From positions 806,001-870,000 of the forward strand of contig NZ_CP087715.1 of NCBI RefSeq assembly GCF_020991125.1: a stretch of DNA of 64,000 bases, given 5' to 3'. Shown here piece after piece: positions 1,423 to 12,875 of the stretch. This DNA is from Microbulbifer celer. Its GTDB lineage: Bacteria; Pseudomonadota; Gammaproteobacteria; Pseudomonadales; Cellvibrionaceae. The notes under the pieces are model-generated. The model saw only the letters and a list, made by a program, of their open reading frames with translations. It was not told the DNA's origin and ran no database searches. A program made the translations under genes and the position numbers. Position 1 is the stretch's first letter, and each line of letters opens with the position of its first letter.

Positions 1423-1910
1423 AACGGCGCGCGTATTCCGCACTCAAGTTCGTCTTTTTCGCGGTGATCATTGTTTCCGCCGTATCCTGGTACCAGAGCC
1501 GCAATATTCCCCGCGGTGAGGTCCCGCAGCTGCTGACAAAAAGCATCGCCGGCGATCCAATCGACCTGCACACCATGGCCGAAAACGGCCCCGTGCTGAT
1601 CTACTTCTGGGCCACCTGGTGCGGCTACTGCCGCGTCGTCTCCCCCGCAGTGTCAGACATCGCCCGCGATCACCAGGTCATCACCGTCGCCCTGCAATCC
1701 GGCAACGCAGACGAAGTGGCCGCTTACCAGCAACAGCATAACCTCAACTTCACCACCCTCAACGACCCCTCCGGCCAACTCAGCAACAGCTGGGGCCTGC
1801 AGGTCACACCGACGGTATTGATTGTGGATAGGGAAGGAAAAGTAAGTTGGGTAACCTCAGGCCTGACGTCCAAATGGGGGATGCTGGTAAGGCTTTGGAT
1901 GGCGGACTGA
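1419..1910 (+). CDS. Membrane-anchored thioredoxin-like protein (ScsD/TlpA-type disulfide oxidoreductase)
   Basis: A 163-residue protein with one N-terminal membrane segment (about residues 8-25, KFVFFAVIIVSAVSW) followed by a thioredoxin fold facing the periplasm. The redox motif is WCGYC in YFWATWCGYC, and the cis-proline site is VTPTVLIVD. Known relatives (ScsD, TlpA) reduce or isomerise disulfides in the periplasm and are often linked to copper tolerance or cytochrome maturation; no such partner genes are visible here, so the substrate is open. The GTG start overlaps the trmO stop by 4 nt. Confidence 0.78.
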   Translation: MKRRAYSALKFVFFAVIIVSAVSWYQSRNIPRGEVPQLLTKSIAGDPIDLHTMAENGPVLIYFWATWCGYCRVVSPAVSDIARDHQVITVALQSGNADEVAAYQQQHNLNFTTLNDPSGQLSNSWGLQVTPTVLIVDREGKVSWVTSGLTSKWGMLVRLWMAD

Positions 1911-1913
1911 CCC

Positions 1914-1956
1914 CGTCATGCCGCCGCTCTCGTCATATCGGACTTGATCCGGTTCC
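1914..1956 (+). repeat. Dispersed intergenic repeat copy
   Basis: A degenerate copy of a short repeat built around GTCAT(G/C)CCGG and (C/A)GACTTGATCCGG. Related pieces occur near 7705, 8833, 11921, 15118, 17092 and 25870. It lies directly upstream of the duplicated A-B-C block. Confidence 0.5.
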
Positions 1957-2107
1957 AGAACTTTGAAACGGAGCGCTGCGCTCCAACTTGGCACTACCGT
2001 ACCCCAACTATTTTTGCCTGTGTTTTTGCGTATTTGGTAGTCTTTCGCGCTTACCTGATTGACCGATCCGGCTCAAGGAACAACCTCGTTCGCAGAAGGA
2101 AATTGCC

Positions 2108-3400
2108 ATGGGACAGCCGCCGTCCATTCAGCCTAATACCTAGCCATCCAATGCACTCCAAAGTTGGGGCAGCCGCGAATCTGGCCGCGCCATCTTCGCA
2201 AACGGCAGTCACCGACAACTGCTGGATAACTTCCGCCAATTAAGTGCCCAGCAGAGCAGCGAAGGCTTTCACGCACAAGCCCTCGTCAAAGCCGTAGACA
2301 GCCTTCGCGGTCCCGCCAGCCCCGTCAACAGCATGCTCAAACCGAATCACCCCACCCGGCGTTTATTGGTGGCAGGGGGTTTTGAGGTTGAGTATGAACT
2401 GAACAGTTACTATGGGGATTGCCAGACGGATGTGCAGATTGTGGATATCCGGTTGCTGGGAGATGACGCAAATGCTGGGCGACGGCCAGCACTATGGCGA
2501 GCAAAGCACGAGGAGGAGTGGCGTACTGATGGCGCGTCCAAGCCCAAGCTGACGGCAACTGCGACCCAGGCCGGCAGTGCCCAGGCCCCACTCAAGTTGG
2601 GAATCAATGGCCAGTGTGAAGATCTTCGTGATTCTTTAGAAGTTGTAGCCGAGCACATTAACCGCGGTGATAGTAAAAAGCGTGCGGATCTGGAAAAAAG
2701 CGGCTACCAGATGGTGTATGTGCCGCCGGAGAGCAGCGCCTGGGCCGCGGGCTGGCGCACCTTGAAGTCCCTGGGTAACAGCGGTAGCGGGCAACAGAGG
2801 CTGGCGGCGCGCTTGGTGGCGTCGCATATGTACGAGGCCCACCAGCAGGGGCTGCATGTGGATTGGACCAGCCAGGGCGAGGGCGCCTGGGTGTTGATAG
2901 AAGCCATGCGGCACCTGAAACAGAAAAATATCGACCTGAAGCAGCGGCAGAAGATTTTTTTGAGTGACCATACCCGCAGCCAGTTTGAAGCGGACCGCTA
3001 CCGCCGTGCTCTCAATATGGATATCAGCGATGAAAAATGGCTCAGCGCCGTTGGAGGCCTGACTCAGGAAGTCGGAGGTCGCAACTTCGGCCTTGCCCCA
3101 CTGCTGAGTGAAGGCAACGAGCTGATTCACCATACACCGCGAGGGGAGCGGTTGGGCCATACCGTCAAAATCTGCTGGGAACTCGGTGACTACTTGGTAA
3201 AAAAATGGGGAACAGCCGGGACAGCAGCGGGGCTAGCTGCTGCAACTGGAGGAAACGCCGCACTGGCACTGACGGTAGTGAAGGCGCTGCACAAGGCCAC
3301 CCCAATGCTTATATCCTCGCTGCCCGGCGCCAAGGACCACTATTTCAAGAGTACAGGCGACCAGCTACGGCAAATGATCAATAACCGCGCGAAGCGCTGA
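2108..3400 (+). pseudogene. Gene A, copy 1: unknown protein interrupted by an early stop codon
   Basis: Copy of the 431-residue protein at 9017-10312. Codon 12 is TAG at 2141-2143 where copy 2 has CAG, a single-base change. The rest of the frame is intact to the normal C-terminus, so a shortened product could start at the internal ATG at 2333 (residue 76 of the full protein; 355 residues). Codons of roughly residues 130-165 differ strongly from copy 2 (KPKLTATATQAG against TPKLTRTETLIG), while the rest is closely similar. B1 follows after 25 bp. Function unknown; see the intact copy for motifs. A sequencing error at 2141 is the main alternative to a real pseudogene. Confidence 0.75.
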
Positions 3401-3425
3401 CCCAGGCGCTATACGGGATTTCACT

Positions 3426-4496
3426 ATGTTATTTGGCAATGAAAAGAACCCCAAGGGGCCCAGCTGGCGCAAAGCGCGCAGGATTGAAAAGGATCTTTCC
3501 GGTATCAGGGTCAGTTTTGCTGCGCCATCTTTCCGCCCGCCTATCTATGGTCAGGAATCGATGGAAGATCAGGCCAACGCCTTTGACCTAGATGACTCGG
3601 AAGTCTGGACAATTCGCGAGCGGGAGGGCCGGGATGGCACCACTCATATCAGTCACGTGGTGGAAGTCTGGACCTGTGGTTGGAACTTTACTGGCCGCCC
3701 TCTGCTTGATGGTAAAAGTGTCGGCAACCTGGTGATGCAAATTGAGCTGGTGGAAGTACGAGATCTGCCGGTAAACAGCAGCCTGTTCCAGCGTGGCGAA
3801 CTCGCCCGATTCGCCCAGAGTTACTGTACTGATGGGCACCTGGGGCGCTACCACAAGGGGCGCGCCGAAGACCGTAATCCTTTCGACCTCACCCAGTACC
3901 AATGGCCAGACAATCTTCTTCCGATCAACTGTCAGTGGCTGGATCGTAACGGTAGTGAATGGCTCTACTTCGAAATGCAACCACTGCAGCATATTGCGGA
4001 CAGGTTTTATTGGCTGTTTCCAGTCGGCCACCAGCGCTGCCTGCGTGTGCGCTTTATGGCAACAAGAAAGTTACGCAATGCCGGAAACCCTTACCGCGAA
4101 CAACGATCGCGACTGGATAACTACCGCCAGCTGATGGAAAACATCATGGATTCCATGGCAGTGGAACTTACCGAAGCCGCCAATATCGAGAAGTCCAATA
4201 TCCACAATGCCGATGGTGACTATCCCTTGCCCCACTGCACCGAGCAGCTGGTAAAAGAAGCCAAGCATACCCTCTATATGTGGAGTGGGGCTGGCTACAC
4301 CGATAAGTCTCAACCCAAACAAGGCGGAGACCACCGTGCCCCCAAAGAAGACGTGGCCGCATTTATCGACCGGCGCATCAAACCCCGGCCGTTGCCCGGC
4401 TGCCTGGCCATCGGGCCGGCATTTTTATCCAGTAACGAATCAGATCCTATGCCATCACCCCAGATGGACGCCTCAAAAGTTTTACCGAATGGGTAA
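3426..4496 (+). CDS. Gene B, copy 1: unknown 356-residue protein
   Basis: I do not recognise this family. The protein is soluble in appearance: no signal peptide and no membrane segment. Landmarks shared by all copies are the start FGNEKNPKGPSWRK, WNFTGRPLLDG, DLPVNSSLFQRGEL, the block HKGRAEDRNPFDLTQY, WLDRNGSEWLYFEMQPL, and a very conserved last third with CTEQLVKEAKHTLYMWSG, KQGGDHRAPKEDVAAF and LPGCLAIGPAF. Two further intact copies (6626, 10338) and one broken copy (5373) lie in the same window. It always follows A or a scrap of A, about 25 bp downstream, so A and B are probably co-translated partners. An effector/immunity or other conflict role would fit the multiplication of B, but nothing in the sequence proves it. 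Confidence 0.8.
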   Translation: MLFGNEKNPKGPSWRKARRIEKDLSGIRVSFAAPSFRPPIYGQESMEDQANAFDLDDSEVWTIREREGRDGTTHISHVVEVWTCGWNFTGRPLLDGKSVGNLVMQIELVEVRDLPVNSSLFQRGELARFAQSYCTDGHLGRYHKGRAEDRNPFDLTQYQWPDNLLPINCQWLDRNGSEWLYFEMQPLQHIADRFYWLFPVGHQRCLRVRFMATRKLRNAGNPYREQRSRLDNYRQLMENIMDSMAVELTEAANIEKSNIHNADGDYPLPHCTEQLVKEAKHTLYMWSGAGYTDKSQPKQGGDHRAPKEDVAAFIDRRIKPRPLPGCLAIGPAFLSSNESDPMPSPQMDASKVLPNG

Positions 4497-4543
4497 CACC
4501 CGATTCATTGAATTTCTAGATCATTAAAGACGCAGCAAAAATT

Positions 4544-4945
4544 ATGAAAGAATATTTACTAAAGTTCTGGCTGTTTACTTGGGAAGTTTTTGGGGTAAGT
4601 GTCTTATTGATTGGTGTTGCAGGTATTGACCACCATTTTGGAACCTTTTGGGGAATTCTTGCTGTAGTAGCTTACAAATTGAGAATTCACCTGATTATTG
4701 CCGCATATTATGGCGCAGTTGATGTATTACTTTGGGACGCCAATATTGCCCTGCTTTATGCTGCCGTTTTGCCAGCATGGTATCTATTCCGGGTTGTGGT
4801 GTCATCCTTGCCGGGCGCTCGAGACATCTACTACACAGGAACCTGGAATCAGATAAAATATTTGACCAAAAGGTACAGAAGCAAATTCGGTGCGCGACAA
4901 ATAGATCGAGATACCCCGGAGTTGGATCGGGCGGATTCGGAGTAG
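4544..4945 (+). CDS. Gene C, copy 1: small unknown membrane protein
   Basis: A 133-residue protein with three or so hydrophobic segments (about residues 8-27, 33-56 and 60-84) and a polar, acidic end (DTPELDRADSE). Residues 87-108 (SSLPGARD then a Tyr pair and Q) resemble the C-terminal tail of protein A, which also has SSLPGA(R/K)D straight after a hydrophobic stretch. The ATG start is preceded by the same sequence in both copies. The codons are more AT-rich than in A and B. It differs from copy 2 (11453) at only a few residues. Function unknown; the shared tail suggests it and A act on, or at, the same membrane partner (inference). Confidence 0.75.
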   Translation: MKEYLLKFWLFTWEVFGVSVLLIGVAGIDHHFGTFWGILAVVAYKLRIHLIIAAYYGAVDVLLWDANIALLYAAVLPAWYLFRVVVSSLPGARDIYYTGTWNQIKYLTKRYRSKFGARQIDRDTPELDRADSE

Positions 4946-5034
4946 GGGAAGAGTGCGGGCGAAACATTGCAGCTGTAGGGAGGATAAGCGCAGCGCATCC
5001 ACCATCTGCGCCAGAACCGTAGTGCCCCGGGAAC

Positions 5035-5052
5035 GCCGAGCCCCAGCTCGGC
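5035..5052. repeat. GC-rich hairpin repeat (AGCTC family)
   Basis: GCCGAGC-CCCA-GCTCGGC, part of a GGGAACGCCGAGC...GCTCGGC element. The homologous position in unit 2 is 12004-12021. It belongs with the similar GGGACCG(C/T)GGAGCTCCAGCTC hairpins at 8190 and 33095. It could also serve as a weak terminator between C and yacG. Confidence 0.5.
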
Positions 5053-5067
5053 AAACGGTAAAAACAC

Positions 5068-5290
5068 TCAGTGCCGAGTCTTGGAAGCCTCCAACTCCTC
5101 ACTCATCACGTCATCAAATACCGGCTGCCCGGGGATCTTGTGTCCCTCACTGGCCCACTCCCCCCAGGTCAATCAGTTTGCAGCGCTCACTACAGAACGG
5201 GCGGAACCGGTTCTCCGGGCTCCACTCGGTAATTTTTTGGCAGATAGGGCAATTGAGTATTAGGCGATGGGACGTAGGGCGGTCAGAGGT
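5068..5290 (-). pseudogene. yacG remnant, unit 1
   Basis: Clearly homologous to the intact yacG at 12037-12243, with matching segments such as TCATCACGTCATCAAA and GGTTCTCCGGGCTCCACTCG. It is dead: the start codon position reads ACC instead of ATG, and about 16 nt are inserted near the 5' end (around 5260-5275), shifting the frame. It shows that the duplication that made unit 1 reached into the pil-coaE-yacG operon at the right edge of the array. Confidence 0.85.
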
Positions 5291-5372
5291 AGCAATGATC
5301 TTTGTTTGATTCGGCAGGTACTAAAGTCCTGTCTATTTCCGGCACCGCAAACGTAACTAAGCAGGCATTTAC

Positions 5373-6424
5373 ATGTTTTTTGGCAATGAGAAAAACCCAA
5401 AAGGGCCGGCTTGGCGTCGCCTTCAGAGTATGGAGAAGAATGTTTCCGGCACGTGGATTCGATTTTCTGCACCAATGTTGCGGTTGCCTTTACGCGGGCG
5501 CAGTGATCTGGAGGAGCAGCCCGATACGTTCGACCTTGGTGACTCCTCAATCTACAAGCCTTATGAAAGCTCCGGCAGTGAAAATGACATACAGGACGTG
5601 CGAATCTGGCTTAGCGGGTGAAACTTTACCGGTCGCCCATTCTGGACGCAGAAACTGTTGGCGACCTGGTACTGCGGCTGAGTGTACTGAATGTAAAAGA
5701 CCTGCCGGTTAACCAAAGCCTGTTTCAGCGCTCAGCAATGAGAGATTTGGTCAATCGCCTGCACGAAAGTACGGATATTGGGGGCTCCCACAAGGGGCAC
5801 ACAGAGGACAGGAACCCATTTGACCTCACCCAATACCGCTGGCCGAATTACCTAACACCGATAAACAGCCAGTGGTTGAGCCGCAATGGAAGCGAGTGGC
5901 TGTATTTTGAAACCCAACCATTATGGACTGGCGCGCTGGATTTTTTCTGGTTAACTCCTATTGGACATCAGCACTGTGTAGTAGGTCACTTTATGATCAC
6001 GCACTGGTTGAGAAATGCCGGCAATCCATACCGGCAGGCAGATCGGAGCTCGACTGCCAATTACCGCCAGCTGATGGAGCGTATAATGGATACCATTAGT
6101 ATTGAGTTGTCGGGTAATGCCGGTACAGAACAGAAAAGTATCTGTAACCCAGAAGATGAATATCCTCTGCCGAATATTACCGAGCAAATGGTAGCCCAGG
6201 CGAAACACACCTCGTACATGTGGAGTGGAAAAGGGTACACCGATAAGTCTCAGCCCAAACAAGGCGGAGACCACCGCGCCCCCAAGGAAGATGTGGCCGC
6301 ATTTATCGACCAGCGCATCCAGCCCCGTCCCTTACCGGGTTGCATGGCAATTGGCCCTGCTTTTGTCGAGAAGGAAGCCTCGAATAATCAACCTGAGTCT
6401 GCAGCGATTGCTAGCAACCGGTAG
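5373..6424 (+). pseudogene. Gene B, copy 2: decayed (nonsense codon plus frameshift)
   Basis: Starts with FFGNEKNPKGPAWRR like the other copies. At the position of the WNFTGRP motif the Trp codon is TGA (5619-5621), and a one-base deletion a few codons later shifts the frame; the rest is then open in the frame that starts near 5618 and runs to the normal end (KQGGDHRAPKEDVAAF, LPGCMAIGPAF). It is far more diverged from B1, B3 and B4 than those are from one another, so it is an old copy. No A gene precedes it and no C follows it. Confidence 0.85.
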
Positions 6425-6467
6425 GGTGGGGGTTGCCCCACTCTTCAATGTAGGGTTTTGGTAGGAT

Positions 6468-6522
6468 CCAACTCATCACATCATCAAAAACTGGCTACCC
6501 GGGGATTTTGCGCCCCTCACTG
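6468..6522 (-). pseudogene. Short yacG fragment
   Basis: About 55 bp matching the 3' end of yacG (compare 12060-12121), with a small internal deletion. It is fused at CTCACTG to the 3' end of an A gene; the A sequence reads CTCGCTGCCCGG at that place, so the join sits on a short stretch of shared sequence. Confidence 0.75.
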
Positions 6523-6600
6523 CCCGGCGCCGGGGACCATTATTTCAAAAGTACCGGTGACCAGCTGCGGCAAATGATCAATAACCGCGCCAAGCGCTTA
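6516..6600 (+). pseudogene. 3' fragment of gene A
   Basis: Encodes the last 28 or so residues of protein A (SLPGAGDHYFKSTGDQ and following), with the normal stop TGA changed to TTA. It is followed by the same 25 bp spacer that separates A from B in the full units, then by B3. It shows that B3 was once preceded by a complete A gene. Confidence 0.85.
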
Positions 6601-6625
6601 TCCAGCCGCGATACGGGACTTCACT

Positions 6626-7681
6626 ATGTTATTTGGCAATGAAAAGAACCCCAAGGGGCCCAGTTGGCGCAAGTCGCGTAGGATTGAAAAGGACCTTTCC
6701 AGTACCAGGGTCAGTTTTGTCGCGCCACCTTACCGCCCGCCAATCTATGGTCAGGGGCCGATGGAAAATCAAGCGGACAGCTTTGATCTGAACAGCCCGG
6801 AAATATGGCTTCCCCACGAACAGGAAAGTCGGGACGGTACCAAGCGTATCAGTCACGAGGTGGAGATCTGGACCTGCGGCTGGAATTTTACCGGCCGGCC
6901 CCTGCTCGATGGTGAAAGTGTTGGCAACTTGGTGATGCAATTTGAACTGGTGGAAGTGCGAGATTTGCCGGTAAACAGCAGCCTGTTCCAGCGCGGCGAA
7001 CTCGCCCGATTCGCCCAGAGCTACTGTACCGACGGGCACCTAGGTAGCTACCACAAGGGGCGCGCCGAAGACCGCAATCCCTTTGATCTCACTCAATATC
7101 GGTGGCCAGATAACCTTCTCCCCATCAATAGTCAGTGGTTGGATCGCAACGGGAGTGAATGGCTTTATTTTGAAATGCAGCCGCTGCACCATGATGTAGA
7201 CAGGTTCTATTGGCTACTGCCCATTGGTCATCAACGCTGCCTGCGTGTACGTTTTATGGCTGAGCGCTGTATCCCAAACGCCGGCAACCCCTACCGCGAG
7301 CAGCGATCTCCGCTGGACAACTACCGTCACCTGATGGAAAACATCATGGATTCCATGACAGTGGAACTTGCCGAAGCCGCCAGTATCGAGAAGTCCAATA
7401 TCCACAACGCCGACGGTGACTATCCCTTGCCCCACTGCACCGAGCAGCTGGTAAAGGAAGCCAAGCACACCCTCTACATGTGGAGCGGGGCTGGCTACAC
7501 CGATCAATCCCAACCCAAACAAGGCGGAGACCACCGCGCCCCCAAGGAAGACGTGGCCGCATTTATCGATCAGCGCATCCAACCCCAGCCGCTACCCGGC
7601 TGCCTGGCCATCGGGCCGGCATTTGCGGCAGATACAGAAGCGGAAAGTCACAAGCACGAAGTGAAAGCTATCGACGGGTAA
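6626..7681 (+). CDS. Gene B, copy 3: unknown 351-residue protein
   Basis: Intact copy of the B family (see 3426). Its first 230 bp and the 25 bp upstream are almost identical to B4 (10338), its middle (WTCGWNFTGRPLLDGESVGNLVMQ) is closest to B1, and its last third is near-identical to both: a mosaic. The C-terminus differs (FAADTEAESHKHEVKAIDG) from the NESGPTPSP-type ends of B1 and B4. It lacks a complete A partner and a following C gene. If B acts only with A, this copy may be an orphan. Confidence 0.8.
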   Translation: MLFGNEKNPKGPSWRKSRRIEKDLSSTRVSFVAPPYRPPIYGQGPMENQADSFDLNSPEIWLPHEQESRDGTKRISHEVEIWTCGWNFTGRPLLDGESVGNLVMQFELVEVRDLPVNSSLFQRGELARFAQSYCTDGHLGSYHKGRAEDRNPFDLTQYRWPDNLLPINSQWLDRNGSEWLYFEMQPLHHDVDRFYWLLPIGHQRCLRVRFMAERCIPNAGNPYREQRSPLDNYRHLMENIMDSMTVELAEAASIEKSNIHNADGDYPLPHCTEQLVKEAKHTLYMWSGAGYTDQSQPKQGGDHRAPKEDVAAFIDQRIQPQPLPGCLAIGPAFAADTEAESHKHEVKAIDG

Positions 7682-7704
7682 TGTCGGGTCAATTTTTATT
7701 TAAT

Positions 7705-7735
7705 ATGCCGGACCCGATCCGGTACCGGCATGACA
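7705..7735. repeat. Dispersed inverted repeat copy
   Basis: ATGCCGG and CCGGCAT arms (7705-7711 and 7725-7731) around a GATCCGG core, the same family as the perfect copy at 11921-11977. It sits between B3 and the end of the orphan antitoxin gene. Confidence 0.6.
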
Positions 7736-7756
7736 AACGATTCGGCACATCGCGTC

Positions 7757-8059
7757 TTAGGCTAGAGCCTCAATCCCTTTCCGGTTTACGATGTTCAAAA
7801 GCTTCAGCGACGGGCCATTCGGATGCTTTTGCCCGGTTTCCCACTTCTGGATGGTTGAAAGACTGGTATTCAGATACGCGACGAATACGGCCTGGCTGGC
7901 TTTGTTACGGGTACGTATGCGTTTGATTTGTACCGCACTGTAATCCTTGATCTCAGGCAGGCAGAGTGCATCAATTTCGCGCATAGTGGCCTGTTTCAAG
8001 CCACCAGCTTTGTGCAGACCTTCCGCAGTCTCATGTAGGGCCTTAAGAATGTCACTCAT
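7757..8059 (-). CDS. Helix-turn-helix antitoxin (HigA/NadS-like), partner toxin broken
   Basis: A 100-residue XRE-type regulator. The helix-turn-helix is in the second half: IKRIRTRNKASQAVFVAYLN then TSLSTIQKWETGQKHPNGPS, followed by LKLLNIVNRKG. This form, with an N-terminal DILKAL...GLHKAG stretch, is typical of antitoxins encoded just after a RelE/HigB-like toxin. The start overlaps by 8 nt the end of a truncated toxin frame, the usual toxin-antitoxin arrangement. With the toxin destroyed, it is now an orphan regulator, perhaps retained to counter related toxins (inference). Confidence 0.8.
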   Translation of the reverse strand: MSDILKALHETAEGLHKAGGLKQATMREIDALCLPEIKDYSAVQIKRIRTRNKASQAVFVAYLNTSLSTIQKWETGQKHPNGPSLKLLNIVNRKGIEALA

Positions 8060-8135
8060 CGAGTTCTACCTCTACCAATTCACCGGCTTTTAGCAGTTTT
8101 TCCAGAACCTTGTTGCTTTGCGGTAAAATAGTGTG
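8052..8135 (-). pseudogene. C-terminal scrap of a RelE/HigB-like toxin
   Basis: The last 27 or so codons (NKVLEKLLKAGELVEVELDE) match the usual end of toxins paired with HigA-type antitoxins. Upstream the frame runs into GC-rich hairpin repeats at 8151-8233, and none of the toxin core can be found. The toxin gene was therefore truncated, and repeat DNA now stands at the break. Confidence 0.65.
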
Positions 8136-8150
8136 ACCCGCCCGTAAAAT

Positions 8151-8233
8151 GCGGAGCTGGAGCTTCGCGCACCCGACAAGGCTTCCTCCCCGGGACCGCG
8201 GAGCTCCAGCTCCGCAGGCGGGCAACGCCCGCC
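8151..8233. repeat. Cluster of GC-rich hairpin repeats
   Basis: Three hairpins in 83 bp: GCGGAGCTGGAGCTTCGC (8151-8168, imperfect), GCGGAGCTCCAGCTCCGC (8198-8215, perfect) and GGCGGGC-AAC-GCCCGCC (8217-8233). The segment 8190-8212 recurs, inverted and with one mismatch in 23, inside dnaE2 at 33095-33117. Confidence 0.75.
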
Positions 8234-8243
8234 CCAAATAGCG

Positions 8244-8501
8244 CTACCGATAAACCCCCGACCGGTGTCCAACCCGAATCACCGTCACCACCAACCGATC
8301 ATCAATAATCTCGTAAACAATACGATAAGAACCCTGCCGCACCCGGTAATGCTCCGATCCGGTCAGCTTGATACAACCCTCCCCGCGGGGATCTTCAGCC
8401 AGCTGCTCAATACGCTTGAGAATCCGCGCAACATCCCTTTTGGGGATAGCACGTAAATCCTTCGCAACGGATTTCTTAAACGCAATCTTATATTTTGCCA
8501 T
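8244..8501 (-). CDS. RelE/ParE-family toxin
   Basis: An 85-residue protein with the family pattern: N-terminal YKIAFKKSVAKDLRAIP, the middle LTGSEHYRVRQGSYRIVYEI and the end VVTVIRVGHRSGVYR. Members are either mRNA interferases or gyrase poisons; the sequence alone does not decide which. It overlaps the end of the antitoxin gene upstream by 14 nt and depends on the same promoter. The module sits inside the A-B-C array, between B3 and unit 2. Confidence 0.88.
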   Translation of the reverse strand: MAKYKIAFKKSVAKDLRAIPKRDVARILKRIEQLAEDPRGEGCIKLTGSEHYRVRQGSYRIVYEIIDDRLVVTVIRVGHRSGVYR

Positions 8502-8721
8502 GCTGCTTCAGATCATCCAGCAGGGCCTCATAGGTCATCTCGGGCTCTTCCACCCGTGAGCGGATCGCTTCCAGATCTTCCTGATCTTCACGCATCAACA
8601 ACCGCACCGCCTCATCCACCAACTCAGAGAGCGAAGTGTGGGAAGTGGCCGCGCGCAGTTTCAAAGCCTGGTGAATGGCGGGGTCAAAATAGACCGTGGA
8701 ACGTTTGGAAAGGTTGCTCAC
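8488..8721 (-). CDS. Ribbon-helix-helix (CopG-type) antitoxin
   Basis: A 77-residue protein. The N-terminal ribbon-helix-helix is STVYFDPAIHQALKLRAATSH and LSELVDEAVRLLMRED; the acidic C-terminus (EEPEMTYEALLDDLKQHGK) would bind the toxin. It is the first gene of the pair, as usual for RHH/RelE modules, and should repress its own promoter through the palindrome found in the spacer at 8760-8777. Confidence 0.88.
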   Translation of the reverse strand: MSNLSKRSTVYFDPAIHQALKLRAATSHTSLSELVDEAVRLLMREDQEDLEAIRSRVEEPEMTYEALLDDLKQHGKI

Positions 8722-8756
8722 AAGGGCTCTCCCGGGACTATAGAGATACTTTTGGC

Positions 8757-8784
8757 ATTATAGCGTTATAACGCTATTGGTCAA
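8757..8784 (-). promoter_or_regulatory. Promoter with embedded operator for the RHH/RelE module
   Basis: Read on the minus strand: TTGACC (8784-8779), a 16-nt spacer, and TATAAT (8762-8757), close to the sigma-70 consensus. The spacer is filled by a perfect 18-nt palindrome ATAGCGTTATAACGCTAT (8760-8777), the likely binding site of the antitoxin. The antitoxin ATG lies 36 nt downstream of the -10 box. Confidence 0.8.
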
Positions 8785-9016
8785 TTTTTGCTCGGGGCTC
8801 GTCCTGTGACTGTGGGGCTTATCTATCCTGCATGACATCGTTACACCACACTAGATCCGGTATCCAGGAATCTGGAGCAGGGCTGTCGCCACCAACTTGG
8901 CACTACCGTACCCCAACTATTTTTGCCTGTGTTTTTGCGTATTTGGTAGTCTTTCGCGCTTACCGGATTGACCGATCCGGCTCAAGGAACAACCTCGTTC
9001 GCAGAAGGAAATTGCC

Positions 9017-10312
9017 ATGGGACAGCCGCCGTCCATTCAGCCTAATACCCAGCCATCCAATGCACTCCAAAGTTGGGGCAGCCGCGAATCCGGCCGCGCC
9101 ATCTTCGCAAACGGCAGTCACCGACAACTGCTGGATAACTTCCGCCAATTAAGTGCCCAGCAGAGCAGCGAAGGCTTTCACGCACAAGCCCTCGTCAAAG
9201 CCGTAGACAGCCTTCGCGGTCCCGCCAGCCCCGTCAACAGCATGCTCAAACCGAATCACCCCACCCGGCGTTTATTGGTGGCAGGGGGTTTTGAGATTGA
9301 GTATGAACTGAACAGTTACTATGGGGATTGCCAGACGGATGTGCAGATTGTGGATATCCGGTTGCTGGGAGATGACGCAAATGCTGGGCGACGGCCAGCG
9401 CTATGGAAGGTTAAACACAAACGGCAGGGATGGGTAAGAGGTAGTGAGCCAACACCCAAACTCACAAGAACCGAGACCCTGATCGGTAGCGCCAAGGCTC
9501 CACTCAAGCTGGGAATCAATGGCCAAAGTGAAAGCCTTCGCGACTCTCTACAAGTTGTAGGCGAGCACATCAGCCGCGGTGATAGTAAAAAGCATGCGGA
9601 CCTGAAGAAAAGTGGTTTTCAACTGGTGTACGTACCGCCGGAAAATAGCGCCTGGGCCGCGGGCTGGCGTACCTTGAAGTCCCTCGGCAACAGCGGCAGT
9701 GAGCAGCAGCGACTGGCGGCGCATATGGTAGCGGCACATATGTTTGAGGCTCACCAGCAGGGCCTGCATGTAGAATGGACGAGCCAGGGCGAGGGCGCCT
9801 GGGTGTTGATAGAAGCCATGCAGCACCTGAAACAGCAAAATATCGACCTGGACCAGCGGCAGAAGATTTTTTTGAGTGACCATACCCGCAGCCAGTTTGA
9901 AGCGGACCGCTACCGCCGTGCTCTCAATATGGATATCAGCGATGAAAAATGGCTCAGTGCCGCTGAAGGCCTACCGCAGGAAATCGGAGGTCGCAACTTC
10001 GGCCTTGCTCCACTATTGAGTGAAGGCAATGAGCTGATTCACCATACACCGCGAGGGGAGCGGTTGGGTCAAACCGTCAAAATCTGCTGGGAACTCGGTG
10101 ATTATCTGGTAAAAAAATGGGGAACAGCCGGGACGGCAGCGGGGCTCGCCGTTGCAACCGGAGGAAACGCCGCACTGGCATTGGCGGTAGTGAAGGCGCT
10201 GCACAAGGCGACCCCAATGCTTATATCCTCGCTGCCCGGCGCCAGGGATCACTATTTCAAAAGTACCGGCGACCAGCTGCGGCAAATGATCAATAACCGC
10301 GCCAAGCGCTGA
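9017..10312 (+). CDS. Gene A, copy 2: unknown 431-residue protein, possible hydrolase fold
   Basis: No family recognised with confidence. There is no signal peptide. Residues 202-300 read like part of an alpha/beta hydrolase: LVYVPPENSAWAAGW, then HQQGLHVEWTSQGEGAWVLIEAM, where Ser256 in TSQGEG stands where the nucleophile elbow (HSQGG) would be, followed by strand KIFLSDHTRS. No catalytic Asp/His assignment is possible by eye. Residues 370-393 (AGTAAGLAVATGGNAALALAVV) are hydrophobic and could enter a membrane. The tail 404-425 (SSLPGARDHYFKSTGDQ...) resembles the end of protein C. The ATG is preceded by GAAGGAAATTGCC, a good ribosome binding site. B4 and C2 follow closely, so A2-B4-C2 is likely one operon. 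Confidence 0.8.
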   Translation: MGQPPSIQPNTQPSNALQSWGSRESGRAIFANGSHRQLLDNFRQLSAQQSSEGFHAQALVKAVDSLRGPASPVNSMLKPNHPTRRLLVAGGFEIEYELNSYYGDCQTDVQIVDIRLLGDDANAGRRPALWKVKHKRQGWVRGSEPTPKLTRTETLIGSAKAPLKLGINGQSESLRDSLQVVGEHISRGDSKKHADLKKSGFQLVYVPPENSAWAAGWRTLKSLGNSGSEQQRLAAHMVAAHMFEAHQQGLHVEWTSQGEGAWVLIEAMQHLKQQNIDLDQRQKIFLSDHTRSQFEADRYRRALNMDISDEKWLSAAEGLPQEIGGRNFGLAPLLSEGNELIHHTPRGERLGQTVKICWELGDYLVKKWGTAGTAAGLAVATGGNAALALAVVKALHKATPMLISSLPGARDHYFKSTGDQLRQMINNRAKR

Positions 10313-10337
10313 TCCAGCCGCGATACGGGACTTCACT

Positions 10338-11408
10338 ATGTTATTTGGCAATGAAAAGAACCCCAAGGGGCCCAGTTGGCGCAAGTCGCGTAGGATTGAA
10401 AAGGACCTTTCCAGTACCAGGGTCAGTTTTGTCGCGCCACCTTACCGCCCGCCAATCTATGGTCAGGGGCCGATGGAAAATCAAGCGGACAGCTTTGATC
10501 TGGACAGCTCGGAAATATGGCTTCCCCACGAACAGGAAAGTCGGGACGGTGCCAAGCGTATCAGCCACGAGGTGGAAATCTGGACCAGCGGATGGAATTT
10601 TACCGGTCGCCCTTTGCTCGACGGAGAAAGCCTTGGTCGACTATTGATGCAAATCGATTTGGTGGAAGCACGAGATCAGCCAGTAAATAGTAGCCTACTC
10701 CAGCGCCGCGAACTTGCCCGGCTCGCCCAAGATTATTGTACCGATGACTATCTGGGCTCCTACCACAAAGGGCACGCCGAAGACCGCAATCCCTTTGACC
10801 TTACTCAATACCGGTGGCCCGATTACCTCGGCCCCATCAATAGCCAGTGGCTGGATCGTAATGGTGGCGAATGGCTTTATTTCGAGGCTCAACCCTTGCA
10901 CCAGCACGGAGATAGTTTTTATTGGCTACACTCCATTGGCCACCAGCGCTGCCTGCGCGTGCGCTTTTTGGTCGAACGCTCCATCCCAAACGCTGGCAAC
11001 CCCTACCGCGAACAACGGTCACCACTGGACAACTATCGCCAGCTGATGGAAAACATCATGGATTCCATGACAGTGGAACTTTCCGAAGCCGCCAGTATCG
11101 AGAAGTCCAATATCCACAACGCGGATGGTGACTATCCCTTGCCCCACTGCACCGAGCAGCTGGTAAAGGAGGCCAAGCACACCCTCTACATGTGGAGTGG
11201 GGCTGGTTATACCGATAGAACCCAACCCAAGCAAGGTGGAGACCACCGCGCCCCCAAGGAAGACGTGGCCGCATTTATCTACCAGCGCGTTCAACCCCGG
11301 CCGCTGCCCGGCTGTCTGGCCATCGGGCAGGCATTTTTATCCGACAACGAATCAGGCCCTACGCCATCCCCCCAGGCGGACGCCCCAAAACTTTCCCAGA
11401 ACGGGTAA
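10338..11408 (+). CDS. Gene B, copy 4: unknown 356-residue protein
   Basis: Intact member of the B family, with the same landmarks as B1. Its first third is nearly identical to B3, its last third to B1 and B3, but the middle has many private changes (WTSGWNFTGRP, SLGRLLMQIDLVEARDQPVNSSLLQRREL, WPDYLGPINSQW). This pattern of conserved ends and a variable middle suggests either selection on a recognition surface or recombination between copies. It follows A2 by 25 bp and precedes C2 by 44 bp. Confidence 0.8.
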   Translation: MLFGNEKNPKGPSWRKSRRIEKDLSSTRVSFVAPPYRPPIYGQGPMENQADSFDLDSSEIWLPHEQESRDGAKRISHEVEIWTSGWNFTGRPLLDGESLGRLLMQIDLVEARDQPVNSSLLQRRELARLAQDYCTDDYLGSYHKGHAEDRNPFDLTQYRWPDYLGPINSQWLDRNGGEWLYFEAQPLHQHGDSFYWLHSIGHQRCLRVRFLVERSIPNAGNPYREQRSPLDNYRQLMENIMDSMTVELSEAASIEKSNIHNADGDYPLPHCTEQLVKEAKHTLYMWSGAGYTDRTQPKQGGDHRAPKEDVAAFIYQRVQPRPLPGCLAIGQAFLSDNESGPTPSPQADAPKLSQNG

Positions 11409-11452
11409 TCATTGATCTATTGACTTTCAAGATTAAAGACACTGCAAAAATT

Positions 11453-11854
11453 ATGAAAGAATATTCACTAAAGTTCTGGTTGTTTACTTGGGAAGTTTTT
11501 GGGGTAAGTGTCTTATTGATTGGTGTGGCAGGTATCGACCATCATTTCGGAACCTTTTGGGGAATTCTTGCCGTAGTAGCTTACAAATTGAGAATTCACC
11601 TGATTATTGCCGCATATTATGGCGCAGTTGATGTATTACTTTGGGACGCCAATATTGCCCTGCTTTATGCTGCCGTTTTGCCAGCATGGTATCTATTCCG
11701 GGTTGTGGTGTCATCCTTGCCGGGCGCTCGAGACATCTACTACACAGGAACCTGGAATCAGATAAAATATTTGACCAAAAGGTACAGAAGCAAATTCGGT
11801 GCGCGACAAACAGATCAAGATACCCCGGAGTTGGATCGGGCGGATTCGGAGTAG
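11453..11854 (+). CDS. Gene C, copy 2: small unknown membrane protein
   Basis: Near-identical to C1 (4544); changes include KEYSLKF for KEYLLKF and RQTDQDTPE for RQIDRDTPE. The ATG at 11453 is chosen because it is the start shared with C1; an in-frame TTG at 11420 would add 11 residues. Three hydrophobic segments, then the SSLPGARD tail that recalls protein A. The high conservation of C against the variable middle of B suggests a constant role in the unit. Confidence 0.75.
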   Translation: MKEYSLKFWLFTWEVFGVSVLLIGVAGIDHHFGTFWGILAVVAYKLRIHLIIAAYYGAVDVLLWDANIALLYAAVLPAWYLFRVVVSSLPGARDIYYTGTWNQIKYLTKRYRSKFGARQTDQDTPELDRADSE

Positions 11855-11920
11855 GGGAAGAGTGCGGGCGAAACATTGCAGCTGTAGGGAGGATAAGCGC
11901 AGCGCATCCAACACTGGCTC

Positions 11921-11977
11921 CCGGATCGTTTTGTCATGCCGGCACCGGATCAAGTCCGGCATGACAAAACGATCCGG
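11921..11977. repeat. Perfect inverted repeat (dispersed family, best copy)
   Basis: Two 22-nt arms, 11921-11942 and 11956-11977, are exact reverse complements, around a 13-nt loop CACCGGATCAAGT. It is absent from the same place in unit 1, where a short unrelated segment stands instead, so it moved here, or was lost there, after duplication. Related degenerate copies occur across the left half of the window. Confidence 0.85.
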
Positions 11978-12036
11978 TGCCGGGATGACGACGCCCCGGG
12001 AACGCCGAGCCCAAGCTCGGCAAACGGTAAGAGCAC

Positions 12037-12243
12037 TCAGTGCCGAGTCTTAGAAGCCTCCAACTCCTCACTCATCACATCATCAAACACCGCCTGCCCG
12101 GGAATCTTGTGCCCCTCACTGGCCCACTCTCCCAGGTCAATCAGCTTGCACCGCTCACTGCAGAACGGCCGGAAACGGTTCTCCGGGCTCCACTCGATAA
12201 TCTTCTGGCAGGTAGGGCAATTGAGGGTAGGGCGATCAGACAT
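12037..12243 (-). CDS. yacG: DNA gyrase inhibitor YacG (zinc-binding)
   Basis: A 68-residue protein with the four zinc-binding cysteines in CPTCQK and [14 protein letters not shown], the YacG signature, and the usual IPG motif afterwards (HKIPGQAV). The family binds GyrB and inhibits gyrase, at least in E. coli. It is the last gene of pilB-pilC-pilD-coaE-yacG, a common gammaproteobacterial order, 11 nt after coaE. Fragments of this gene occur at 5068-5290 and 6468-6522 as by-products of the neighbouring array. Confidence 0.95.
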
Positions 12244-12254
12244 AACAGCTATCT

Positions 12255-12875
12255 TTACAACGATTGATATTGGGAGGCCAGCACCACGTAGCGCGCATGC
12301 AACTTGTCTACCTGCGCTTCCAGCTCAGCCAGCGAAGCGTCATTATCCAGAATATCGTCTGCCTTTGCACACCGCTCCGCTCGCGGCATTTGCGCAGCCA
12401 TGATCTTGCGGATCTGCTCCGGATCATTGCCATCGCGCATACTGGCGCGCTCAAGCTGCGTCAGCTCCGGCAGATCCACCACACAGATCCGCTGCACCAG
12501 CGCTGACTGGCCAGACTCAATCAACAGCGGTGACTCCAGAATGGCATACGGAGCCGAGTGGGTCTGTGGGCTTGCCGCCAACGCAGTAACAATCTCTTCG
12601 CGGATCAACGGATGGGTCAACTCCTCCAGCCAGCGCCGTTCTGCCGGGTCATCAAACACCCGCTTGCGCAACGCCGCCCGGTCCAGGTTCCCGTCCGCCA
12701 GCAATACCTCAGCGCCAAAATGCTCCGCAATCGCCACCAACGCCGGCCGCCCCGGCTCAACCACCGTACGCGCCGCCCGATCCGCATCCACCACATTCAC
12801 CCCATGGTGTCGAAACCGCGCCGCTGCTGCAGACTTACCGCTGCCAATACCGCCCGTCAAACCCACCGTAAACAT
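12255..12875 (-). CDS. coaE: Dephospho-CoA kinase
   Basis: About 206 residues, the normal length. The P-loop is [11 protein letters not shown] at the N-terminus, followed by VVDADRAAR and the [18 protein letters not shown] and [17 protein letters not shown] motifs of CoaE. It phosphorylates dephospho-CoA at the 3'-OH of the ribose, the last step of coenzyme A synthesis. The ATG at 12875 ([10 protein letters not shown]) is preferred because the family begins only a few residues before the P-loop; an upstream ATG at 12908 would add 11 residues. Confidence 0.95.

Follow-up and report, generated by a model that had tools for sequence, protein, structure and literature searches.

Why should a small hydrophobic protein have a tail related to that of the otherwise different protein encoded two genes upstream of it? 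The question is raised by a gene that we call C, in a window of 64 000 nucleotides (the whole stretch of DNA analysed here; contig NZ_CP087715.1, positions 806 001–870 000 of the forward strand) from Microbulbifer celer, the genome of which is a single contig of 4.35 Mb. The window contains two A-B-C cassettes, flanked by a TrmO/thioredoxin-like pair and by coaE (Pfam assignments), and C adjoins A-B on the downstream side in both. The A next to the C of the first-pass annotation is A1, which is interrupted by one in-frame TAG close to its start; the intact form is A2, and behind the A2-B4 pair lies a near-copy of C (C2). The features of the array are as follows.

2108–3400, + strand: A1, cassette 1, 89% identical to A2, tail starting at 3314
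3426–4496, + strand: B1, 356 amino acids, cassette 1, partner of A
4544–4945, + strand: C1, intact ORF of 133 amino acids, hydrophobic, with an A-like tail, cassette 1
4802–4885, + strand: tail of C1 (residues 87–114), taken as homologous to the A tail from profile, BLASTP and hhalign comparisons
5373–6424, + strand: B2′, a B-like gene broken by an in-frame TGA
6505–6597, + strand: stray A C-terminal fragment, equivalent to A residues 401–431 (87%), directly 5′ of B3
6626–7681, + strand: B3, 351 amino acids
9017–10312, + strand: A2, intact, 431 amino acids, cassette 2, tail residues 404–431 at 10226–10309, AlphaFold model
10338–11408, + strand: B4, 356 amino acids, partner of A2, cassette 2, predicted Mog1/PsbP-like fold in residues 13–250
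11453–11854, + strand: C2, intact second C, cassette 2, ORF open from TTG at 11420, tail starting at 11711

Between the two cassettes lie B2′, the stray A C-terminus and B3 on the + strand, together with a ParE-type toxin–antitoxin pair and an HTH protein on the − strand. The − strand genes occupy 7757–8721, inside the A-B array; the ParE-type toxin is accompanied by a ribbon-helix-helix antitoxin (Pfam), and the HTH protein has a Pfam score just below the cut-off. Cassette 1 is partly decayed, with the TAG in A1 and, nearby, the TGA that interrupts B2′; cassette 2 is intact. Segments 5024–5276 and 6471–6525 are diverged copies of 11993–12244 and mark duplicated array ends, and 11993–12244 itself reads as what we take to be a YacG-like gene on the − strand. 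No Rfam RNAs were found in 1900–12600.

The motif SSLPGARD begins at residue 87 of C1 (base 4802), where the first-pass annotation had placed it, at the end of the last hydrophobic segment. The same motif starts at residue 404 of A2 (base 10226), and A1 has SSLPGAKD from base 3314. The C tail aligns without a gap to A from residue 404, and the aromatic pair, threonine and glutamine that had been reported at matching spacing are found at equal offsets in C and A (+9/+10, +13 and +16), giving SSLPGARD...YY..T..Q in C. A single-pair BLASTP comparison of C with A2 yields 11 identities in 24 positions (E=8e-6). Over the 28 residues of the tail C and A2 share 11 identities, and only 43 of the 84 nucleotides are identical, so that the tail of C was not copied recently from an A gene of this array.

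To build a profile of the A tail, 11 sequences from elsewhere in the genus were used, ten taken from A proteins and the eleventh from a stray A C-terminus; rows from the own genome were left out to avoid circularity. Against 144 genomes of the family the profile detects both copies of C at 28.7 bits (E=6.3e-6); apart from these two, everything that it matches with E<0.004 is an A protein or a stray A C-terminus. A match with E=0.005 in one genome (G009), to a protein with a GGDEF-like C-terminus (labelled by eye), was taken as chance. Against 369 genomes of the class, the next match among the candidates scored has E=0.0093. The program hhalign aligns C 81–114 to A2 398–431 (E=2.9e-6, probability 88%), and a control alignment with B gave a probability of 0.2% and no match. 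With a profile of A, again stripped of rows from the own genome, C reaches 15.3 bits; of 20 000 shuffles in which each half retained its composition, 12 681 scored at all, the best at 6.3 bits, and none reached C. The profile, hhalign and shuffling results together establish that the resemblance of the two tails is real and beyond chance, and it is best explained, at the level of sequence, by shared descent of the C tail and the A tail. The idea of two different proteins of one operon with a common tail stands for the tail, now with statistical backing, whereas a docking or targeting role of this tail, or mimicry of A by C, is conjectural; the A-B-C grouping was seen only in this genome, A-B being found without C in the other loci that were read.

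On the A side the tail is kept in homologues from other species, that is, the resemblance is not lost outside this genome. Ser405 and Pro407 are invariant among A2 and 12 further A sequences that are 37–84% identical to it (13 in all), and also in a set of 15 sequences. Close relatives of A have one of two tail types, for which we coin the names STG, with S(L/I)PGAR..YFK(S/N)TGDQL, and NPG, with SLP(G/S)A(R/K)...(Y/F)(K/T)NPG.Q; distant members have SIPSLNEGYH-like tails. The C tail reaches 23.7 bits on the STG profile versus 17.8 on the NPG profile, and we therefore do not link C to its displaced NPG-type neighbour, B2′. On the same scores, the module to which B2′ belonged is not favoured as the source of C, although it may have been.

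The AlphaFold model of A2 (mean pLDDT 72.9) contains helices at residues 331–343, 346–381 and 385–397, a short helix at 400–404 and a final helix at 417–430. The SLPGARD stretch is a low-confidence loop, with pLDDT below 50 for residues 404–410. According to this model, A is predicted to end in hydrophobic helices followed by a short conserved tail in which the SLPGAR loop precedes a helix. At its N-terminal end, A gives borderline matches to the RelE/ParE fold (8c24, Z 8.5, r.m.s.d. 3.4 and 90 aligned residues over model range 26–214; 9g12, Z 8.0 over 26–121; 3g5o, Z 7.9 over 25–117), and the RelE/ParE-like residues 26–121 of the A2 model correspond to 9092–9379 of the window. Residues 123–346 bear a weak, borderline likeness to the folds of cutinases or lipases (1bu8, Z 7.6, 157 aligned residues). 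With Foldseek, A had no hit at E<=0.001. The possibility that A is a serine lipase of the Tle4 type was rejected, as GxSxG is not conserved and the stretch reads WTSQGEG, WTSHRGG or WTAHKHG across A proteins. No Pfam family, including those of effector markers such as PAAR, Rhs or VgrG, reaches its cut-off in A2 or in five other A proteins. A PADLOC match of LeoBC to a distant A (L079, residues 317–409; 16.7 bits, E=0.00077) covers the hydrophobic end and was taken as a composition match. Neither A nor B has a reliable match by sequence among solved structures; the A-B module has no family at the curated cut-offs of Pfam or NCBIfam and nothing in PHROGs, and PADLOC gave only weak matches of one distant A.

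The model of B4 (mean pLDDT 83.6) superposes on CyanoP (2xb3) with Z 9.7 and an r.m.s.d. of 3.4 over 151 aligned residues, on SciW with the Rhs1 transmembrane domain (6xrr) with Z 8.9, on TplEi/Tli4 (5h7y) with Z 8.7, on EagT6–Tse6 (6xrf) with Z 8.5 and on Tsi3 with Z about 6. Most of its top structural matches are PsbP, SciW, EagT6, Tli4 and the like, with Z 7–9.7, and we take Mog1/PsbP-like as the fold name for B. Foldseek gave no B match at E<=0.001, with a probability of 1.00 for 2xb3, and Pfam DUF1795 is not listed at E<=1 for B4 and five other B proteins. By its predicted fold, B may work like an Eag chaperone or an immunity protein of the Tli4/Tsi3 type.

Of the 13 named loci that the window A protein retrieved, ten are from Microbulbifer. 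In all 22 of the loci L057–L078 (including A3 of the own genome) B comes immediately after A, and BLAST recognizes B in three of eight more distant A loci (L079–L086). Five of the 22 loci (L059, L061, L067, L069 and L074) have at least two full B genes, and stray A C-termini lie 5′ of an extra B in three loci, namely the window (6505–6597), L059 (the same locus as L088) and L069 (by eye). In L088, from Microbulbifer elongatus, a stand-alone A C-terminus of 119 amino acids (7419–7775, matching A 305–426) is of the NPG type, although the A-B pair that precedes it is STG-type; the B that follows this C-terminus is nearest to the B genes of NPG loci (62% to L090). B2′ of the window is also nearest to the B genes of NPG-tail loci (73–78% to L063 and L091). 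No secretion genes were seen by eye among the neighbouring ORFs listed for ten loci (L071, L075 and L079–L086). VipB, of the T6SS, is encoded in the own genome; across the family, 30 of 33 A-positive genomes have it, versus 64 of 111 A-negative ones (Fisher p=0.0003, uncorrected for relatedness), the other three A-positive genomes being without it; within the genus the counts are 19 of 21 versus 19 of 27, a difference that is not significant (p=0.15). A-B looks like a two-gene module without a family name, comparable in its behaviour to an effector with a partner that is an immunity protein or a chaperone. The module goes unmatched at family cut-offs, yet it is duplicated and rearranged as in conflict systems.

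Several known systems invite comparison. In the T6SS arrays of Vibrio cholerae an intact pair has behind it additional partner genes belonging to other types, among which lie leftover effector 3′ ends, and there are mosaic copies, as outlined in an excerpt of the source (PMC5361080), and the layout of the window and of L088 matches the displaced-module pattern of these effector–immunity arrays as described there. In contrast to the V. cholerae arrays, no VgrG, Hcp or PAAR gene was seen beside A-B, the effector and immunity roles of which are putative, and the excerpt makes no mention of an added membrane protein with an effector-like tail. The stand-alone C-terminal piece and partner gene behind the main module in L059/L088 recall the orphan toxin C-termini of Rhs loci, again as far as the excerpt of PMC5361080 describes them, whereas the N-terminal 64 residues of C are not recognizably from A. 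B resembles the Eag chaperones SciW and EagT6, as described in PMC12881460, in being Mog1/PsbP-like (Z 8.5–8.9), in having no signal peptide by eye and in being encoded beside a protein with hydrophobic helices; it differs from them in its length of 356 amino acids and in lacking a Pfam DUF1795 match. A differs from Eag clients in having no PAAR match and in the position of its hydrophobic helices, which are C-terminal rather than N-terminal. The lipase–immunity pair Tle4/Tli4 (TplE/TplEi) is similar in that B matches Tli4/TplEi with Z 8.0–8.7 and A 123–346 is weakly cutinase/lipase-like (Z up to 7.6), but in A the GxSxG serine is not conserved, inspection by eye shows no signal peptide in B, and no sequence similarity was found between the two systems.

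We tentatively favour, at slightly less than even confidence, the reading that C is a lineage-specific membrane protein with a captured A-type end, which would engage the partner of the A tail, perhaps B. The A-B array appears to rearrange, and an A 3′ end left behind or brought in would be the likely source of the C tail; capture of such an end is the simpler origin because stray A C-termini occur beside extra B genes, both here and at two other loci. In the simplest history, a foreign or new hydrophobic N-terminal part would have gained the A 3′ end, and residues ∼81–114 of C, comprising the end of the last hydrophobic segment and the tail, would descend from an A-type C-terminus. The C tail might then bind the same partner as the C-terminus of A, which would probably be B and otherwise a membrane site reached by A, and C could thereby compete with, buffer or anchor the partner interaction of the A C-terminus. 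As to the direction of the effect of C (decoy, anchor, immunity or none), we can only infer it.

C is hydrophobic, with segments centred on residues 14–19, 44–45, 67 and 77–78 by hydropathy. No clear homologue of C outside this genome was found in 144 family genomes, 369 class genomes, genome contigs, viral contigs, plasmids and phages, and residues 1–64 have no clear relative in the same searches; the single-protein scans of viral contigs, phages, plasmids and genome contigs reach close relatives only. Thirteen of the 144 family genomes matched C at E<=0.1: the own genome, six through the A C-terminus and six marginally, the last being weak (E 0.013–0.068). Two matches in the class genomes (E 0.0085 and 0.0098) are no more than the chance expectation over 369 genomes, and at one of the class matches (locus L130) the frame of 350 amino acids is by eye a hydrophobic, transporter-like protein. 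Six sister loci share the flanking genes (L057, L058 and L063–L066), and no C-like frame was seen behind B in any of them. Matches to Blr-like divisome proteins in Pfam/NCBIfam (13 bits over 17 residues) fall below the cut-offs of 27 and 40, and this assignment was rejected.

The occurrence of C in this genome alone would also be expected of a decayed or accidental product, in which an A 3′ end was joined to unrelated AT-rich DNA, stayed open by chance and was duplicated with the cassette without having a function. We regard this as somewhat unlikely. The neighbouring A1 and B2′ are interrupted, as such an origin might suggest, and the GC content of C (0.44–0.45) is lower than that of A and B (0.54–0.58; 0.51 for pilC in the same window). 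No Shine–Dalgarno-like sequence is evident by eye before C, and two overlapping terminator-like sites lie upstream of it on the + strand, at 4402–4419 in the end of B1; both observations call for caution over the expression of C, and the former fits an accidental product. Against such a product, both copies of C are intact, and they are closer to one another at the protein level (98% identity) than are A1 and A2 (89%) or B1 and B4 (78%). Furthermore, six of the nine base differences between C1 and C2 are synonymous (dN 0.010, dS 0.068), an excess with P=0.012 under neutrality, with transitions weighted 2, in this one comparison. The substitution pattern weakly favours a maintained protein, as read from the two sequences. 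A break in base composition near codon 63 was considered as proof of a chimera and discarded, since it lacks significance (a break as strong arises in 259 of 2000 permutations of the codons); for GC3 the break has p=0.014, uncorrected.

The position of C behind A-B in both cassettes, its several hydrophobic segments and the retention in its tail of the serine and proline that are invariant in the A family would also suit a membrane immunity protein or decoy directed against putative A-type effectors, with the A-like tail serving as a recognition element that mimics the target or the tail. We consider this unlikely, as A-B modules elsewhere have no detected C, B by itself can serve as the partner and the toxicity of A is putative. 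A more specific form, in which the membrane immunity protein or decoy is made from the tail of A itself, the effector's partner-binding tail having been put on a membrane anchor, seems to us distinctly improbable; if true, it would constitute a new way to gain immunity, by capture of the effector's own partner-binding tail. Convergence, in which both tails would have arrived independently at a motif for leaving the membrane behind a hydrophobic helix, would fit a similarity that is short (about 28–34 residues) and starts where the hydrophobic segment ends, but it is very improbable given the profile E value, the failure of every composition-preserving shuffle to reach C and the finding that, among the candidates scored, such a tail occurs on no further protein at E<0.004 in the 144 family genomes or E<0.009 in the 369 class genomes.

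The common tail has a practical consequence: it narrows the search for the partner of the A C-terminus, as the same 28 residues are found on two otherwise different proteins. If C blocks or recruits this partner through its tail, it would exemplify a gene of recent origin made out of the end of the effector itself.

One further ORF near an A-B module combines a hydrophobic part with a B-like feature. In L073, a frame of 378 amino acids (2091–3227, − strand) downstream of A-B starts with a hydrophobic part, after which comes a stretch that by eye looks like the opening of B (NPLGPSQR). It has no Pfam match, no similarity to C was found, and its BLAST similarity to B covers eight residues and is not significant. 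This ORF is possibly a membrane-anchored B.
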